Of a DNA stretch of 47,344 nt, positions 31,448-41,965 are shown in pieces. Location of the stretch: positions 1 to 47,344 of the forward strand of contig JAUWCZ010000004.1 of NCBI GenBank assembly GCA_030609055.1, written 5' to 3'. Source of the stretch: Chloroflexota bacterium. GTDB lineage: Bacteria; Chloroflexota; Anaerolineae; Anaerolineales; UBA11858. The position numbers and the translations under genes are program-made. Every line of letters begins with the position of its first letter. Within the stretch, counting starts at the first letter, position 1. The notes under the pieces were generated by a model, which searched no databases, was not told where the DNA came from, and worked only from the letters and a program-made list of their open reading frames with translations.

Positions 31448-32513
31448 ATGCTGGCTTATATTGTGCGGAGAATATTGATCTTACCGATTATTATGGCGAT
31501 TGTTACATTTGTCTTATTCTTCCTGATCATGCAGCTTCCAATCGAGCAGCGAGTAGCAGTATATCTTCCTTCAATGAGTGCGGATACATTTTTTGACCCG
31601 GAAAAAGCGCGGGCTCTAATTGATAATACAATTGAGAAACACGGGTTAAACGATCCTTTTCATACCCAGTATATCCGCTGGGTAAAAAAGACTGATAGTT
31701 GGCGATTGGGGTTTTTCCCCAACCTGGAGGCAGCCGGTATTAGAAGGCATATTAGCTCGTGTTCCAGCAACAGCTGAGTTAGCGCTGGCTGCATTTATCC
31801 CGTCGATAATCCTGGCATTAATACTTGGAGGGCTGGCAGGAAGATATCAAGGAAAATGGCCAGACCATCTAATCCAAACAATGACATTTGTATTGTGGGC
31901 TTTCCCATCGTTTATTCTTGGCCTAATATTGCTTAATTTGCTTTATGCTTGGAACGGGTGGTTTCCTCCAGGGAGGTTAAGCATATCGGCAGGTCCGATT
32001 GTTGATTCAGAGTTCTTTATAAACTATACAGGCATGTCTACCTTTGATGCATTAATTAATGGGAATTTTGAAATACTCTGGGATGCTATCCGTCATCTCA
32101 TTCTGCCGGTAATTACCTTGGCAGGCGCCCAGTGGGCGTTGTTAACACGAATCATGCGCTCATCCATCATTGACACGTTAACGCAAGATTACATAAAAAC
32201 GGCCCGTGCAAAAGGTTTGCCCGAAGAGCGAGTATTAAATCTCCATGCCCGTCGCAATGCGCTGTTACCGTTTATATCCACCGGGGGTGTAGCTGTATCA
32301 CTGCTTCTCAGCGTGATCGTAGTTATTGAAACAGTATTTGCCAGAAATGGGATTGGTAATTCAGCAGCGGAAGCGATCCTATTCAGCGACATCCCGGTAG
32401 CAATTGGATTTGCATTGTTTAGCTGCCTGGTTACGGTGATCGCCAGTTTAATTGCAGACATTCTCTATGGCATCATCGATCCCCGGGTCAGATTAACCGG
32501 ACCAACTCTGTGA
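31448..32513 (+). pseudogene. Peptide ABC transporter permease (DppB/OppB family) split by a one-base frameshift
   Basis: ORFs 31448-31777 and 31881-32513 are the two halves in different frames. Removing one T from GGGGTTTTTCCCC (31708-31720) gives continuous ...WRLGFSPTWRQPVLEGILARVPATAELALAAFIPSIILALILGG.... Confidence 0.85.
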
Positions 32514-33412
32514 AAATTTTCAAATTCCTTCGTCGTAACTTCGGTATGGTAGTTGGTTTTTTGATCGTGGTAAGTTTTGCAGTAGTGGCTATAACTGTGC
32601 CTAAAATTGCCCCCCCTGAAGATACAGAGGATCCTTATACCCTTCCAAGAGGTTCTTACGGTGCCTCACCCAAGCCCCCCTCCGAGGAACACCCGCTGGG
32701 ATTATTGGAAAATCAAGGTGATATCCTCTATGGGCTGATCTGGGGGACAAGAGGAGCATTCATCATGAGTTTGCTGATCGCATTGGGACGAGTCTTGATT
32801 GGTGGGGTGATAGGCATCTTCTCTGGATACTATGGACGGATTATCGACGCAGTCCTTATGCGCCTAACGGATGCTTTTCTCTCCTTTCCACTCATGGCTG
32901 CCGTTCTGATCCTGCTAACCCTATTTGGCGGAGGATTATTAGGGATCCAGACCGGCGGCGCGGAGAAATATATCATCATTGCCTTAATAGCCTTCGGTTG
33001 GATGGGGCATGCCCGATTAATCAGGGGTAACGTGTTATCGGAAAAAAACCAGGAGTACATCCAAGCAGCCATCACCCTGGGCGCAACTCCCCGTCGGATT
33101 ATCTTTAAGCATATTCTACCCAACACCTACCACGGATTATTAGTCCTGATCACTTCTGATATTGGCAGCATTGTGGTCTGGATGGCAGTCTTCAGTTTTC
33201 TGGGATTCTCCGGAATCCAGCCAACAGCAGATTGGGGAAAAATGGTCAATAATTCACGCAACTGGATCGTCAGTGCGCCCACAACCGCTTTAAAGTATTG
33301 GTATACTTTTATCCCTCCCAGCCTAGCCATCATCTTATTCTCATTTGGTTGGAATCTGATCGGGGATGGATTAAGGAATTTGCTTGACCCCCGGATTTCT
33401 AAGACCCAATGA
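32510..33412 (+). CDS. Peptide ABC transporter permease (DppC/OppC family)
   Basis: LIRGNVLSEKNQEYIQAAITLGATPRRIIFKHILPNTYHGLLV...FGWNLIGDGLRNLLDPRI, the DppC EAA loop and C-terminus. Confidence 0.93.
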   Translation: MKIFKFLRRNFGMVVGFLIVVSFAVVAITVPKIAPPEDTEDPYTLPRGSYGASPKPPSEEHPLGLLENQGDILYGLIWGTRGAFIMSLLIALGRVLIGGVIGIFSGYYGRIIDAVLMRLTDAFLSFPLMAAVLILLTLFGGGLLGIQTGGAEKYIIIALIAFGWMGHARLIRGNVLSEKNQEYIQAAITLGATPRRIIFKHILPNTYHGLLVLITSDIGSIVVWMAVFSFLGFSGIQPTADWGKMVNNSRNWIVSAPTTALKYWYTFIPPSLAIILFSFGWNLIGDGLRNLLDPRISKTQ

Positions 33413-33547: not shown

Positions 33548-34459
33548 TTAGCGTGGTTTTCTTAACCTGGGATCCATAATATCGCGGACGGCATCACCAA
33601 GCAAATTCCAACCCAGCACGTAAAGTGAAATGGTGACCCCCGGAAAAACAATAATAAACCAATATTTATCCAAGACCGGGATCCAATTGCGGGCAAAGTT
33701 AATAATCTGGCCCCAATCGGCATATCCTACCTGAACTCCAACTCCCAGGAAGCTGAGAGTTGCAAATGCCAGGACATAGGTGCCGATATCCATGGAGGCA
33801 ATCACCAAGGTTGGAAAGATTGCATTGGGTAAAATATGCCGCGTCACGATTCTCATATCAGTGGCACCAGACACACGGGCAGCCAAGACATACTCTCTCT
33901 CCTTAACAGAGAGAATATCACCTCGAATTAAACGAGCATAGGACGTCCATCCAAAGGCAATTAAAGCTATCATCGGTGTCACAATGCCTTTTCCTAATTT
34001 TGGCTGCAAAACTGTCGCAATCGTTAAGGCAGCTAACAAATATGGAAAAGCCATAAAGACTTCCACGATTCGCATTAATACTTCATCCACAGCACCGCCG
34101 TAATACGATGCAATTGTCCCAATCAGCAGCCCTATGACAACAGTGGAAAAAGTAACAATCAGACCCGCTTTAAAGGCTGTCCTGGTTCCCCACACCAACC
34201 CGTAATAGATATCATATTGACCTTCTGTTGTGCCCAGCCAGTGCCAATCTTCATCTCCAGGGGAGAGATCCTCATCGGTCATCCAGGAAGGCGGCTGCGG
34301 TTCAGCTCGAAATCCATCCCGGGGAATATCAAAACGATCATCATAATCTTCGTATGGAGCAAGCACCGGTGCCAGGATCGCAATAACCAGGTAGACCAGG
34401 ATCAGTATGATCCCGATCAACGATATCGGGGTTGTAAGTAATTTTCGGACGTTTTTCAT
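33548..34459 (-). CDS. Peptide ABC transporter permease (DppC/OppC family)
   Basis: LIRGDILSVKEREYVLAARVSGATDMRIVTRHILPNAIFPTLV...LGWNLLGDAVRDIMDPRLRKPR. Confidence 0.95.
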   Translation of the reverse strand: MKNVRKLLTTPISLIGIILILVYLVIAILAPVLAPYEDYDDRFDIPRDGFRAEPQPPSWMTDEDLSPGDEDWHWLGTTEGQYDIYYGLVWGTRTAFKAGLIVTFSTVVIGLLIGTIASYYGGAVDEVLMRIVEVFMAFPYLLAALTIATVLQPKLGKGIVTPMIALIAFGWTSYARLIRGDILSVKEREYVLAARVSGATDMRIVTRHILPNAIFPTLVIASMDIGTYVLAFATLSFLGVGVQVGYADWGQIINFARNWIPVLDKYWFIIVFPGVTISLYVLGWNLLGDAVRDIMDPRLRKPR

Positions 34460-35523
34460 GACAGCCTCACCCGGGGATCAAAGAATCCATACAGCACATC
34501 AACCAGCAAGTTCCCTCCCACCATGACGAAACTGCTAAATAACACCAATCCCAATAAGGTAACCACATCAAAGGCAGCAGCAGAGTTAACAAACAAGCGG
34601 CCCAAACCATGCAGGTTATAAATTGTTTCTGTAATTACAACACCTGTCAAGAGGCCGATAAAAAGCAGCCCACCAATGGTAACAACTGGCAGCATGGCGT
34701 TCTTCCGGGCATGGAGGTTCCTGACCACCCGCTCACTTAATCCCTTCGACCGGGCTGTTTTAATGTAATCCTCACGTAAAGTCTCCAACATGGAGGATCG
34801 CATCACCCGCATTACCTGGGCAAAGATTAAATAAGATAACCCGAACACCGGCAGAATTAAATGTTTTACCGCATCCAGGAAAACATCCCAGCGCCAGTTA
34901 AGGATTGCATCAACGGTATTGATTTTGGTATATTGCGTAAAGACGGTAGGATCCCAAACGATATTTTTTGCCCATTGAGACAAACTTTCTGGCGGCAGCC
35001 AATCTAACCCGGAATAGAATATCATCAACATTAACAGGGCAAACACAAAGGTAGGAAATGACCAGGCAACCACCGCAAACACCCGCGAGAACTGATCGAT
35101 AAATTTGTTGTGATTCACAGCCGCCTGGATCCCCACATAGATTCCCGATGCCATAATGGGGCCGATACTCCACAAAGCCAGTTCTAGGGTTACAGGCAAT
35201 TTGGTCATAATCGCTTCCGTAACAGGCATTTGGGCTGTATGGGACCACCCTAATTCTCCTCGAAGGATCCCCCCTTCAATTTCTCCAGTTACTTCATCTT
35301 TATTTCCCACCAACCAGCGAATATATTGTTTAGGAATCGGTTCATTTAACCCATATTTTTCGATAATCTTCTGAACTGCAGTTGCTGTTCTTGGGACATC
35401 AGAGACATATAAAGTCGCTCGCTCTATTGGATCAAGCAGCATCAGCATCGCAAATATCAATATGGTGACCCCAAACATAATTACTGGCAAAATTAATAAC
35501 CGCCGCAGAATATAAGCCGTCAT
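34456..35523 (-). CDS. Peptide ABC transporter permease (DppB/OppB family)
   Basis: MTAYILRRLLILPVIMFGVTILIFAMLML...SSMLETLREDYIKTARSKGLSERVVRNLHARKNAMLPVVTIGG...DVLYGFFDPRVRLS; 4-nt overlap with dppC. Confidence 0.95.
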   Translation of the reverse strand: MTAYILRRLLILPVIMFGVTILIFAMLMLLDPIERATLYVSDVPRTATAVQKIIEKYGLNEPIPKQYIRWLVGNKDEVTGEIEGGILRGELGWSHTAQMPVTEAIMTKLPVTLELALWSIGPIMASGIYVGIQAAVNHNKFIDQFSRVFAVVAWSFPTFVFALLMLMIFYSGLDWLPPESLSQWAKNIVWDPTVFTQYTKINTVDAILNWRWDVFLDAVKHLILPVFGLSYLIFAQVMRVMRSSMLETLREDYIKTARSKGLSERVVRNLHARKNAMLPVVTIGGLLFIGLLTGVVITETIYNLHGLGRLFVNSAAAFDVVTLLGLVLFSSFVMVGGNLLVDVLYGFFDPRVRLS

Positions 35524-35685: not shown

Positions 35686-37707
35686 TTACTCAGCCATTTC
35701 ATTGGCGAGTTCGATCGCAAAATCTTCAACTGCAATTCCACCCATGATTGGCTCCCAGAACATCCACTGCGGGCCGCCAGCGCGGTCCTGTAACAGACCT
35801 CGCCAAAGAGCATACGCAGCATCATGCGCTTTCAGTTCATCGCCATTGTGGAATTTCACACCTGAGCGAATCTTAAAGGTATAGGTTGTCCCATCCTCAG
35901 AGATCTCCCAGGATTCCGCAATGCCACCCACGAAGCTGCTGTAATCTTCCCTTTCCATCATGACCAGGGGTTCATACAACTGCATTATAACGCCGCTGCT
36001 TGCACTATCGTACATGTAAGCCGGGTCAAAAGTCTCCGGTCCTCCAATCGTGGTGTAAATCAACGTGGTAGGATCCGCCGCGTCATCACTCTTGGATAAT
36101 GGATAGGCATAGGGATCTGGGTAAGCAGCATTAAAGTAATAACCCTCCACGTAGAGTGGTTCGTAGTGGCGGCCTGAAGCCTGCACACCGAAGATGTCGA
36201 TTGCATCTGCAACAGCCATTTGCTGAAGCTCATTGTAAGCAGCATCAGCTTTAGCAGCATCTGCGTAAGATAACGCCTCATCAATCTTGGCTTCATATTT
36301 CGCGTACAGATCCTCGGGGAAATTCTGCCAGCCAGAGAAGGTGCCATAGCTCGCCATGTAGGGGGTAACCCAGTTGTGCGGGTGATGGTAATCCTCAATC
36401 CAGCCAATCCAGAACATGGGGAAGTGTCCGGCGATCATGCCTTTCAGGTAGGTCGGCCACGGCACGGAAAGAATCTCGACCTGGAAATTGTCATTGAGGG
36501 CTTCCACATTGGTTTTGAGAATTTCAGACATCATCCGGCGTTGATCGTTGCCGGTGTTGTAGGTGAGGACCATATAAAAGCCTTCGGTCCAGACATCACC
36601 TTCATCATCCTCGCCAGCGGGAATGCCGTCACCGTCAACGTCCGCCGCCTTAAATTCCTCTTCAGCCTTTACAGGATCGAAGGAATAGGCAAAGTCATCG
36701 GCATGGTAACCCAGCATGGGGTTGATGATCGGACCCAGACGCTGTTCAGCCTCACCCAGGAATCCCTCTTCAATGAAGATGGCCCAGTCAAAGCTGTAGT
36801 TAAAGGCTTTCCGAAGATGGACATCGGAGAAGAAGTCAACGGGGATACCGTCACCCAAAGATCCGTTTCCAATGTAGGGGTTGCCGCCTTCAGCATTAAC
36901 GTTGAAGTTAAAGAAGCCGTCAACTGAATCTACACCTCCCAGTCCCTTATAGAGCCGGAACTGGCCATCAGGATTAACTGTGACACATTCTTCTGTCACA
37001 TAGTCGCATTCCTCGGCGACCATGGGGTCAACCTGTTCAGCGTACTGCCGCGGAACATAGTTAAAGTCGGCATCTCCCGCTTCAAACATGGAGAATCGGG
37101 TGCCCCACTCATCTACGCTCTTAATCACGTATCTATCGAGGGCCGGGGGACCACTCGGCCCGCCTTCCCAGATCGGTTCTGTCCGGAAGTAATCAGCATT
37201 GGCGACAAATGATATTTCTTCACCATGCCTCCAGTGTTCCAGCTTAAAGGGTCCGGTGCCATTCGCGGCATCAAACAGGATAGATTCCTCAGCTGAGGGA
37301 TCATGCCAAGGCACCCAATTGTCACAGGAGCCGTCCCAACCGCCGTTAGCAGCCATCCACGCTTGATCCAGCGGGCTTGCCCACCCATTGGCCAGGGTTT
37401 GCAGCATCGGACCGAAAGCTGCAGGCATGTTGATGGTCATGGTCATGGCGTCGTCATCGTAGGTGACGGCGGCTTTGACCGCTTCACAGACCTTAACCAG
37501 CACATCAGCGGGAACATCAGCAAAATCAGTGATGCCCTCGTCTTCTGGTTCGGGTTCTGGTTCAGGGGTTGCCGTAATCACAACTTCTACTTGTTCCTTC
37601 ACTATTCTTTCGACTACTTCAGGTACTGAAGGACCACAAGCGCTGAGAATAAAACTCGCAATCAAGATTATTCCCAAAACAAGCATCAAATTTTTCTTAA
37701 ACCTCAT
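35686..37707 (-). CDS. SBP_bac_5 peptide-binding lipoprotein with apparently circularly permuted segment order
   Basis: Lipobox FILSACG. The mature protein begins in the canonical middle (DVLVKVCEAVKAAVTYDDDAMTMTINMPAAFGPMLQTLANGWAS...NGTGPFKLEHW), reaches the canonical C-terminal end (RHYEPLYVEGYYFNAAYPDPYAYPLSK), then carries the canonical N-terminal segment (DPTTLIYTTIGGPETFDPAYMYDSASSGVIMQLYEPLV...WEISEDGTTYTFKIRSGVKFHNGDELKAHDAAYAL). Confidence 0.92.
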   Translation of the reverse strand: MRFKKNLMLVLGIILIASFILSACGPSVPEVVERIVKEQVEVVITATPEPEPEPEDEGITDFADVPADVLVKVCEAVKAAVTYDDDAMTMTINMPAAFGPMLQTLANGWASPLDQAWMAANGGWDGSCDNWVPWHDPSAEESILFDAANGTGPFKLEHWRHGEEISFVANADYFRTEPIWEGGPSGPPALDRYVIKSVDEWGTRFSMFEAGDADFNYVPRQYAEQVDPMVAEECDYVTEECVTVNPDGQFRLYKGLGGVDSVDGFFNFNVNAEGGNPYIGNGSLGDGIPVDFFSDVHLRKAFNYSFDWAIFIEEGFLGEAEQRLGPIINPMLGYHADDFAYSFDPVKAEEEFKAADVDGDGIPAGEDDEGDVWTEGFYMVLTYNTGNDQRRMMSEILKTNVEALNDNFQVEILSVPWPTYLKGMIAGHFPMFWIGWIEDYHHPHNWVTPYMASYGTFSGWQNFPEDLYAKYEAKIDEALSYADAAKADAAYNELQQMAVADAIDIFGVQASGRHYEPLYVEGYYFNAAYPDPYAYPLSKSDDAADPTTLIYTTIGGPETFDPAYMYDSASSGVIMQLYEPLVMMEREDYSSFVGGIAESWEISEDGTTYTFKIRSGVKFHNGDELKAHDAAYALWRGLLQDRAGGPQWMFWEPIMGGIAVEDFAIELANEMAE

Positions 37708-37816: not shown

Positions 37817-38821
37817 TTAAAGAATTATGGCTTCCCCATCCCTTTCAACCAAATGGCACGCACTAAAATGGTCAGTTTCTATTTCAATAAAATCAGGTTC
37901 TTTTTTGAAGCAGATATCCTCTGCCAAGGGACAGCGGGTGTTGAAATTGCATCCCTGAGGTGGATTGGCTGGGTTTGGAAGGTCTCCCTCGATTAATACT
38001 CTTGACCTTTCTTTTTCAATCTTAGGATCAGGGATAGGCACTGCAGATAACAATGCTTGTGTATAAGGGTGGAGAGCGTTGTCATATAGAACTATTTTAT
38101 CAGCAATTTCCACAATTTTACCCAGGTACATGACGGCTACGCGGTTACTAATATGACGAACCATGCTAAGATCATGGGCAATGAAAATATATGTGAGTCC
38201 TAACTCATCTTGAAGTTCTTCCAGCAAGTTGACCACTTGAGCCTGGATTGAGACATCCAGCGATGAAATGGGTTCATCGCAAATGATCAGCTCAGGATTC
38301 AATGCCAGCGATCTCGCGATTCCGATTCGTTGCCGCTGGCCCCCTGAAAACTCATGGGGATATCTATTCATACAGGATGGTGAAATACCAACATAATCAA
38401 GTAATTCGGCAATCCTATCATCCAAGTCTTTTCCCCGCATGGCGTCATGAATTTCTAAAGGTTCACCAACAATATTTTTTATATTCATGCGAGGGCTAAG
38501 GGATGCATAAGGATTCTGGAAAATCATTTGGATTTTTCGACGTAATGTTTGGAGTTCTTTCTTCGAAAGCAGGGCTAGATCCTCTCCATCAAAAAACACA
38601 TGACCATCCGTTGGCCGATAGAGTCGAACGATCGTTCTTCCTATAGTCGTCTTTCCACATCCACTTTCTCCAACTAATCCCAAGGTTTCACCGCGATAGA
38701 CATTAAAATTTACTCCGTCAACAGCTTTTACATCTCCAACATGCCTTTGAAAGACACCTCTTCGGATTGGGAAGTACTTTCTTAATCCCTCAATCCGTAA
38801 AATCTCATCTTCTATTCTCAT
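37817..38821 (-). CDS. Peptide ABC transporter ATP-binding protein (DppF/OppF)
   Basis: [27 protein letters not shown]...[40 protein letters not shown], oligo_HPY C-terminus with [14 protein letters not shown]. Confidence 0.96.
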
Positions 38822-39813
38822 CAGAATTTCTCCACCTTTTCACTTTCCCAACATGCCACCTCATGATTCTCATTCAATTTTTCCAATGGCGGCATTTCCT
38901 GGAGACAACGGTCAATCACAAATGTACATCGATTAGCAAATGGGCATCCTTGAATTTTCCCAATCAGATCAGGTGGTTCTCCAGCAATTGAATATAATCT
39001 TCTTTTGGAAGTAGCTTCTGGATTCGGTAAAGATCCTAACAAACCCACCGTGTAGGGATTTTTGGGGGTATCAAACACTTCATTGACTGACCCTTTTTCA
39101 ATGATTCGTCCTGCGTACATTACATTAACTCGATTCACCATCCGTGCAATAACCCCCAAATCATGAGTAATCCAAATAACAGACATACCCAGCTTTTCCT
39201 TAAGGTTATTAACCAGGTCAATTATCTGCGCTTGAATTGTAACGTCGAGAGAAGTAGTCGGTTCATCTGCTATTAATATTGTAGGATTACAAGATAAAGC
39301 CATGGCGATCATTGCCCGCTGACGCATTCCCCCAGAGAAATGATGGGGGTAATCATCAAGCCTTTGTTTAGCTTCTGGTATCCCTACTAATGATAATAAT
39401 TCTGCAGCGCGGTCCCGGGCTTGTTTATTCCCCATATTCTGATGAAGTTTTATGGCTTCCATGATTTGAAAACCAACGGTTAATACTGGATTAAGAGATG
39501 TCATGGGGTCCTGAAAGATCATCGCGATTTCATTTCCGCGAATTTTTCTCATTTCATTTTCATTCAAGCTCAGTAAATCTTGACCGAAAAAAACTACTTT
39601 TCCAGCTTCAATTTTTCCTGGAGGTGAAGGAATAAGGCCCATGATTGACAAGGCATGAACAGATTTTCCACAGCCGCTTTCCCCCACTACTCCCAATGTA
39701 TCACCTTTATCCATTTGATAGGACATTTCTTCTACTGCGTGGACTACCCCTTCTTCCGTGTAAAAACGAGTGGTTAGATTTTCAACATTCAGAATACGTT
39801 CCCGATTCTCCAA
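38821..39813 (-). CDS. Peptide ABC transporter ATP-binding protein (DppD/OppD)
   Basis: [27 protein letters not shown]...[41 protein letters not shown]-terminal [14 protein letters not shown]. Confidence 0.96.
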
Positions 39814-40066: not shown

Positions 40067-41965
40067 CTACCTTATCCCGCCGATATTCCACAATGGGGGG
40101 TAAGAGCCAGACTGAAACCCCTCCAGGATCGGGTTGGAGAGGATGATATCCCGGCGGAAGAACAAAGGGAGAACCGGCAAGTCATCTGCAAAGATTGTTT
40201 GCATCTTCATTAGAGATTCTTGTGTATCATTCGAATCCGGCAGGGATGAGTGAATAATGTTGCACTCGGCATCAAAACTTTCGTTGGTATAACCAGGCGC
40301 ATTGGCACCACCCCAACCTTTTGGAGCCGACGGATAAAGACCTGGAATTTCATCTAAAGTAAAAATACGGCAGAGGTGATAGTGCCCGGTTGACCACGCA
40401 AAAAGAGCCAGATCAAACCGCCGTCCAAAAACAGGTCCTTCCGGACCTGGCGCCAATAACTCAGACGCAGGGAGGTTTTCAATTAAAACCTCAATACCAC
40501 AGGAAGTTAAATCATCTTGTATCAGCGTAGCTGTAGGGGGTACTATTCTTTCTCCCACCACCAGGAAGGATAGTTGAAATTGCGTACCATCCTTGACATC
40601 TTCCACTCCTTCCGCTACTCGGGGTGTATTTTGATTCTGGTCATGGTCGATCCAGCCAATCTCTTCCAAGGTATTAGCAGCGTCTTGAGGTTGGTAGATA
40701 ATGCTGGAACCATGGTTAATAAAACGGGGATCATCTGGGGGATAGAAACTATTTACTACAAAACCTGCATCGCCTCGATTTGCTGCGATACCCTCTCTAT
40801 TAATGCACTGAGCTATCGCCTGTCGGGTTCTTGGATCCTTAAGATAAACCCTTTTTGAATTCAATGAGTTAATCCCAAAACTAATCTGCTCCCAAGCCCC
40901 CCCCTCAATATAATTGAGTCTTACTTCGCCTTCTTGTTCCAGAATCTGTAATTCCGGTAGATAATCAAATAGATCAGAGATATTAGCGACAATCTCACAT
41001 TCACCAGAAGAATAAGCAGCCAATGCTTCTTCGGCACCTTCTACAAACCGGAATACCAGGGCATCGAAAGCGGGTAGCCCTTCCCCTTTTAAATGATATG
41101 CGTCATTTTTAATGAGTGTGATGTGATCTCCGACAACCCATTCTACAATCCAGTATGGCCCCCACCCAAGCGGTTGTTGAGTCGTCTGGTTCGAGGTCAA
41201 CAGATCTGCCACTGACAGATCTGCCCAAAGGTGCTCCGGTAAGGGGGAGAAATAAAACTCCGGATATGAATAGATACCCAGGTATCCCGGTACTCCTTTC
41301 CAGAGGATTGTGTTCTCATCCACCGCTTCGTAATCAGCGGTAAATCGTAGATTCTGGGGGCCTGAGGAGCCATATAATTCCCGTGCGATTTGATAGGAAA
41401 ACACGGAATCGAGTGCAGTTAATGGGGTTCCATCAGACCAGGTAAGGCCAGTTTTTATTGGGAACTTTATCTCAACTTGATCTAGTATGACCGGGGTTTG
41501 ATTCTGATAGGTTTCCCAACAATCAATACCTGAACAACCAGAAGGACGATATTCCACCCCACTAGCCAGTATCGATAGATTTCCTTTTGAATCGACTATC
41601 CTCTCACCAGGGTTAACTTCCACCGGGACAACAGATACCAATTCATTAGCCCGGGAGGGGATCTCCTCCAGCAGTGGCGAATAAAACTCATAATCAACCT
41701 CATCTACAGGACCATCATAAATTGCCTGGCGAATAATTTTCGCAGAGGTTGATTGATCTCCATAAAGAAAGAGCGAAGTGGGTTCCTCTCCCAAGCAGAT
41801 TGACAGCACCCTTTCAGGCAAGGGAGAAGGCGCCAGCATAGGGGTTGTATCTTCCTGGCTTGTTTCAGGAAGCTGCAGTGGATAGTTCCCTTCAAAACCA
41901 CAAGCTGATAGGAGAAATAAAAATAATAAAATGAGGGACAGGATATATCTGCTCTTTAAAACCAT
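40067..41965 (-). CDS. SBP_bac_5 peptide-binding lipoprotein, canonical segment order
   Basis: Lipobox FLLSACG; PERVLSICLGEEPTSLFLYG near N-terminus; TGLTWSDGTPLTALDSVFSYQ; PLGWGPYWIVEWVVGDHITLIKNDAYHL. Confidence 0.88.
   Translation of the reverse strand: MVLKSRYILSLILLFLFLLSACGFEGNYPLQLPETSQEDTTPMLAPSPLPERVLSICLGEEPTSLFLYGDQSTSAKIIRQAIYDGPVDEVDYEFYSPLLEEIPSRANELVSVVPVEVNPGERIVDSKGNLSILASGVEYRPSGCSGIDCWETYQNQTPVILDQVEIKFPIKTGLTWSDGTPLTALDSVFSYQIARELYGSSGPQNLRFTADYEAVDENTILWKGVPGYLGIYSYPEFYFSPLPEHLWADLSVADLLTSNQTTQQPLGWGPYWIVEWVVGDHITLIKNDAYHLKGEGLPAFDALVFRFVEGAEEALAAYSSGECEIVANISDLFDYLPELQILEQEGEVRLNYIEGGAWEQISFGINSLNSKRVYLKDPRTRQAIAQCINREGIAANRGDAGFVVNSFYPPDDPRFINHGSSIIYQPQDAANTLEEIGWIDHDQNQNTPRVAEGVEDVKDGTQFQLSFLVVGERIVPPTATLIQDDLTSCGIEVLIENLPASELLAPGPEGPVFGRRFDLALFAWSTGHYHLCRIFTLDEIPGLYPSAPKGWGGANAPGYTNESFDAECNIIHSSLPDSNDTQESLMKMQTIFADDLPVLPLFFRRDIILSNPILEGFQSGSYPPLWNIGGIR

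Follow-up and report, generated by a model that had tools for sequence, protein, structure and literature searches.

Most natural circular permutations of proteins are one-off, ancient rearrangements that separate distant relatives, and it is therefore difficult to test how they arose or how they affect fitness. Among the substrate-binding proteins (SBPs) of ABC importers, a naturally permuted, lipid-anchored representative has been described in Treponema pallidum, i.e., Tp0684/TpMglB-2, for which a crystal structure and ligand binding have been documented (PMC4990184). In a general model of circular permutation, a gene is duplicated, the copies are fused, and the product is then trimmed; the permutations of DNA methyltransferases and of saposins/swaposins have been explained in this way (PMC3320104).

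The gene described here lies in the window (the whole stretch of DNA analysed, 47,344 nucleotides) and encodes a protein which shares with the DppA/OppA/GbpA/NikA-type proteins (SBP_bac_5, PF00496) the sequence family, the full set of blocks, the operon partners, and the lipoprotein signal. Unlike in those proteins, its blocks are rotated and the anchor leads into another loop; the protein also exceeds E. coli DppA in length by over 100 residues. The signal peptide and lipobox, the cysteine of which (Cys24) would be the lipidation site judging by the motif, are followed by a PEPEPEPEDE linker and then by the usual C-terminal ~480 residues. The old C-terminus (..YAYPLSK) runs via the joint SDDAA into the old N-terminus (DPTTLIYTTIGGPETFDP..), i.e., into the usual N-terminal 130 residues, and the frame continues with zero internal stops or frameshifts to the stop codon at 35686-35688. 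This layout had been proposed in a preliminary description of the locus, whose block boundaries turned out to be correct within a few residues; its claims of a single open frame and of a position directly before the dppB/C-type permease genes were confirmed as well (Table 1). As in relatives, the receptor is encoded together with two permeases and two ATPases (D-F-SBP-B-C).

Table 1. Features of the permuted receptor gene and its surroundings in the window.
Feature	Positions	Strand	Basis or remark
Circularly permuted SBP_bac_5 lipoprotein gene	35686..37707	-	673 aa, frame intact
Signal peptide and lipobox (..FILSAC)	37636..37707	-	Sequence; same cassette in canonical and permuted relatives
Flexible low-complexity linker (..ATPEPEPEPEDE), residues 25-57	37537..37635	-	Sequence and model
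Block internal/C-terminal in canonical proteins, here in front, residues 58-538	36094..37536	-	SBP_bac_5 profile 70-365
Joint SDDAA, old C-terminus to old N-terminus, residues 539-543	36079..36093	-	
Block N-terminal in canonical proteins, here last, residues 544-673	35689..36078	-	SBP_bac_5 profile 2-77
dppB/oppB-like permease gene, same operon	34456..35523	-	Operon conserved
dppC/oppC-like permease gene	33548..34459	-	Operon conserved
dppF/oppF-like ATPase gene	37817..38821	-	Operon conserved
dppD/oppD-like ATPase gene	38821..39813	-	Operon conserved
Second SBP_bac_5 gene, canonical order	40067..41965	-	Distant relative L268 permuted
Second permease-like ORF set	31881..33412	+	Converges on the operon's dppC-like gene

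The whole protein scored 193.1 bits against PF00496 (cut-off 32.4), and the match was not collinear. When the protein was searched in pieces, the 129-aa piece at 35689-36075 matched profile positions 2-77 (E 5e-19), and the preceding 544-aa piece matched positions 70-365 (E 6e-37), so that the latter stand before the former; each piece exceeded the cut-off by a wide margin. The solved structures gave the same picture: residues 7-81 of GbpA (3m8u) match residues 551-625 of the query, and residues 278-466 match residues 293-497; residues 2-81 of DppA (1dpp) match residues 548-627. Hence, the swapped Pfam and structure matches indicate that the order is rotated and essentially the whole profile is kept. 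The two non-collinear SBP_bac_5 matches anticipated earlier were thus recovered, and neither Pfam nor the solved structures yielded a collinear alignment to canonical proteins. Canonical orthologs, mostly 35-54% identical, likewise align to the window protein as two blocks in reversed order. As in a natural circular permutant, all parts are present, their order is rotated, the old termini are joined, and the new termini lie elsewhere. The protein falls far below the cut-off of the DppA equivalog model NCBIfam NF043070 (75.7 bits vs. 1005), as does the canonical ortholog L061 (37.7). Assignment to the TpMglB-2-like Type Ic/Cluster Bc found no support: the listed sequence matches are all SBP_bac_5-type proteins.

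For structure prediction with AlphaFold2, relatives were entered as separate blocks, so the alignment imposed no canonical order. The full-length model of the window protein reached pLDDT 81.4 and pTM 0.79, with low confidence around residues 39-55 of the linker. The preliminary description would have been contradicted by a C-terminal segment failing to complete the fold; this segment is predicted to be folded, with pLDDT mostly about 77-93 over residues 571-640 and weak spots at the loop 561-569 and the last residues. A model of the permuted Longilinea protein (class P2, see below) was similar in quality (pLDDT 83.1, pTM 0.78). Foldseek matched both models to GbpA, YliB, DppA, and their relatives, with these three among the top matches of the window protein. 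The superposition was only partial, since Foldseek requires the same order and the block order is swapped: TM was about 0.37-0.48 by query length with rmsd mostly 5-10 A for the window protein, and about 0.27-0.33 over about 300 columns for the P2 model.

Relatives were sought in samples of relatives, of the order, of the class, and of the phylum, and every ORF was placed on a reference composed of the N-block (130 residues) and the C-block (486 residues) of the window protein. Strong matches to the window protein were present in 120 of the 399 sampled genomes of the order; in the nine sampled genomes of the same genus, none was found at the strong-match threshold. Besides the canonical arrangement, the ortholog group comprises four permuted classes, hallmarked by their cuts in reference coordinates: P1 (130/131; the window and G136), P4 (202/203; G585, G573, G631, and G595), P2 (344/349; more than 30 genomes, that of the isolate Longilinea arvoryzae among them), and P3 (about 428/442; G328 and G197). 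A second copy in G631, considered as a possible overlap at the P4 site, was rejected as such, being simply another P4 gene. Every complete permuted example possesses its own signal peptide, lipobox, linker, and intact frame, and its content is near-complete. In G136, a genome of another family, the P1 arrangement is split over two contig ends: one encodes the signal peptide and the beginning of the C-block, its linker being interrupted by a run of N, and the other encodes the rest of the C-block and the whole N-block up to the stop. In the isolate Longilinea arvoryzae KOME-1 (NZ_DF967972.1, L204), the P2 gene resides on a 4.1-Mb contig; a Pelolinea MAG (L208) harbors a gene of class P3.

An earlier scan of genome contigs with a single protein as the query gave no match. 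A scan of GTDB genomes with the P2 protein alignment, a query biased toward P2, recovered 80 loci, about 50 of them permuted. The contig of one locus (L187, DYPD01000170.1), filed as a Thiomargarita MAG, bears an Anaerolineae-like operon with a P2 permuted SBP and was probably mis-binned. Overall, the permutation reported in the preliminary description is real but is not a single oddity, with at least four classes in the ortholog group and further cases in other SBP_bac_5 subfamilies. The split matches, the predicted fold, and the independent genomes support an intact, naturally circularly permuted SBP_bac_5 receptor, and from sequence and model the window protein is very probably a functional permutant, the predicted receptor lipoprotein of a Dpp/Opp-type ABC importer.

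In nearly all loci with enough sequence, the D-F-SBP-B-C operon, or its SBP-B-C part, is common to canonical and permuted genes, so the rotations seem to have occurred in place, within the operon position. The joints of the permuted classes are alike in length (about 3-6 residues), often with SK and then D/N-P. In the P3 protein of L122 and L208, cysteines are located near both new termini (..EEKTCKEVS.. and ..ATMMVCE-end), and a disulfide between them might re-close the ring. A canonical relative (L124) has roughly 78 additional residues, flanked by cysteines, inserted at the P3 site.

Weak matches across the joint led to at least five further SBP_bac_5 subfamilies with permuted members in Chloroflexota. 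Family II (P1-type, mostly about 560-600 aa) has full-length matches also outside the window's class, and family III (P3-type) is represented by G002, G004, G005, and G007, all of the window's own genus; the two families share about 30-40% identity in the swapped blocks. Families IV (L014 and L262 of Longilinea) and V (L267/L268) are P2-type, the latter being distant relatives of the canonical second SBP of the window. Family VI, examined with Pfam (about 870-975 aa; L265, L266, L269, and L270), is opened between the GTGPY segment and the next strand, which constitutes a fifth cut point; a search of plasmid records for this family gave no match. In one locus (L250, G034:C3:55000-60500), a 963-aa ORF on the reverse strand apparently carries a family-1-like (sugar-type) binding protein fused before a P1-type permuted SBP_bac_5 body.

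In a Pfam census of nine genomes, about 16 of the 65 SBP_bac_5 genes were permuted, a count made by eye from the hit order in genomes partly picked for having permuted matches and therefore not an unbiased rate. The extremes were G057 (0 of 13) and Longilinea arvoryzae (4 of about 9, one of which, from family VI, was assigned by homology only). Taken together, SBP_bac_5 of Chloroflexota probably represents a permutation hot spot, with at least seven changes in one group (see below) and at least five subfamilies, a few loops of which one has been reused, an anchor moved each time, and about a quarter of the receptors in the sampled genomes affected, possibly under selection for anchor position.

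The history of the ortholog group was reconstructed from 95 sequences reordered to a common arrangement. Strongly supported branches of this tree force at least seven changes between canonical and permuted order; P2 occurs in four separate places (the main clade, L120 with L121, L135, and L118), and P1, P3, and P4 in one place each. The permuted forms are nested among canonical ones, with canonical outgroups, and the canonical order is the ancestral state as indicated by canonical orthologs in the same operon, the nesting, and outside relatives. It is displayed by the solved relatives with alignments shown and by plasmid genes of Thermomicrobium and Deinococcus (two), the plasmid records being a partial control outside the phylum. 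Trees of the protein halves, lower in resolution, each contain at least three P2 changes on strongly supported branches. In these trees the halves of L118 fall near different rows, so some recombination is possible in the history of the group. Among P2 and P4 pairs, those whose dS is usable have dN/dS ratios of about 0.09-0.14; the ratio of the P1 pair, with a nearly saturated dS, is about 0.17. Purifying selection is acting on the permuted genes.

Why the permuted forms have persisted is a separate question. They may have been retained because the lipid anchor on another face of the receptor changes how the receptor faces the permeases or how far it extends. Such an advantage would be in line with the opening of P2 at the same loop in four tree places and with the invariable retention of the signal and linker cassette, and an anchoring advantage has also been suggested for the permuted Treponema MglB-2 (PMC4990184). 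At the same time, the variety of cut sites, the unchanged operon, and the coexistence of canonical and permuted copies within one genome (G138, L139) also fit neutral tolerance, which explains the persistence equally well; an adaptive cause is conceivable, if less likely than not.

The diversity of classes could also stem from a single ancient rotation, or from an ancestral fused ring, followed by re-cutting, reversal, or horizontal spread. Such a common source would account for the similarity of the joint across classes (often SK, 3-5 residues, then D/N-P) and for the clear likeness of families II (P1-type) and III (P3-type), at the identity level given above. Still, the AU test rejects a single clade of all P2 rows (lnL -424, p 5e-7) and of all permuted rows (lnL -628, p 2e-7), and the seven changes are forced by strongly supported branches. 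Moreover, the residues at the joint ends are those often seen at canonical termini, which allows alike joints to arise repeatedly, and a reversal to the canonical order takes as many steps as a new rotation. Reversals may be among the seven changes, and a single origin of all rotations is nevertheless improbable.

Repeated rotation in place is the preferred reading. The cassette of signal peptide, lipobox, and linker stays in front of the rotated body. In the window protein, the five-residue joint closes the ring, which has been reopened at another loop, immediately ahead of the segment leading to the strand 'VTYDDDAMTMTIN'. The fold would be restored and the pocket kept, with the lipid tether entering the body elsewhere; the receptor would bind a peptide-like or other small solute and feed the adjacent permeases. 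As the route to each rotation, we infer an in-frame tandem duplication with fusion, followed by trimming from both ends, and consider it rather likely. This route is open because the canonical ends can be joined by about 3-6 residues and tandem copies of the gene do occur. In L145 (G666:C43:84000-92000), two full-length canonical copies follow each other in one frame; one TAG interrupts them, after which about 64 codons stay open up to the signal peptide of the second copy. This tandem is a possible precursor state of a fused and later permuted gene. Other genomes contain tandem SBP-B-C or whole-operon copies.

The long ORFs of the relatives included no fused double-length SBP (N-C-N-C), and tblastn with nine reference bodies revealed no remnants of a second copy in the immediate flanks of permuted genes, the distant matches nearby being a neighboring second SBP; the duplication and fusion hence remain inferred. 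Four long ORFs considered as double-length SBPs (L146, L147, L148, and L150) were rejected, since in each of them a canonical body is preceded by WD40-like repeats or by a Ser/Thr kinase. The repeats precede the canonical SBP_bac_5 body in L146. In L147, L148, and L150 (G129:C28, G194:C403, and G198:C165), a Ser/Thr kinase, a transmembrane-like stretch, and a canonical SBP_bac_5 body are combined in one ORF, apparently as a kinase with a binding-protein sensor domain; a zinc ribbon is located in front of the kinase in L147 and L150.

Fission and subsequent re-fusion, whereby the two blocks would once have been separate genes later joined in reverse order, is a model established for other permuted proteins (PMC3320104). 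Here it is quite improbable: apart from contig-end fragments, halves encoded as separate genes were not seen in the relatives examined, and the pieces would have had to come together again downstream of the original signal peptide more than once. An assembly or binning artefact, in which mis-joined contigs place gene pieces in swapped order, might be suspected in a set dominated by metagenome assemblies, and tandem SBP copies could mislead an assembler, but it is largely refuted and deserves almost no credence, because the arrangement recurs in G136, related permutations occur in more than 30 further genomes, including that of the isolate with its 4.1-Mb contig, each case would need three novel in-frame joins, and the permuted genes are under purifying selection.

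The open-access literature, to which the search was confined, contained no permuted SBP_bac_5 protein and no repeated permutation in Chloroflexota. Treponema MglB-2 is a known precedent for a naturally permuted substrate-binding protein; a repeated, multi-site form in SBP_bac_5 did not turn up in this search. With many separate rotations at several cut points, the phylum is exceptionally well suited as a natural system for the study of protein rearrangement. Since related bacteria repeatedly have canonical and differently rotated orthologs at one and the same operon position, three questions become testable: how rotations arise, which loops tolerate opening, and whether the anchor shift alters transport. 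In practical terms, annotation by collinear profiles can miss rotated receptors, and these proteins offer natural examples for the design of permuted binding-protein sensors.

With TpMglB-2, the window protein shares the natural permutation, the lipid anchor, and the substrate-binding role in an ABC importer. TpMglB-2 belongs to another family, the Type I/Cluster B sugar-binding proteins, and has one cut point and a poorly conserved permuted segment, whereas the Chloroflexota SBP_bac_5 proteins feature at least five cut points across subfamilies and well-conserved moved segments. The DNA methyltransferases resemble the SBP_bac_5 case in the presence of several topologies in one family. Still, the methyltransferase and saposin/swaposin permutations relate diverged classes, whereas the rotated and canonical SBP_bac_5 proteins are orthologs occupying the same operon position, with an identity of up to about 65% between P2 proteins and their canonical sisters.
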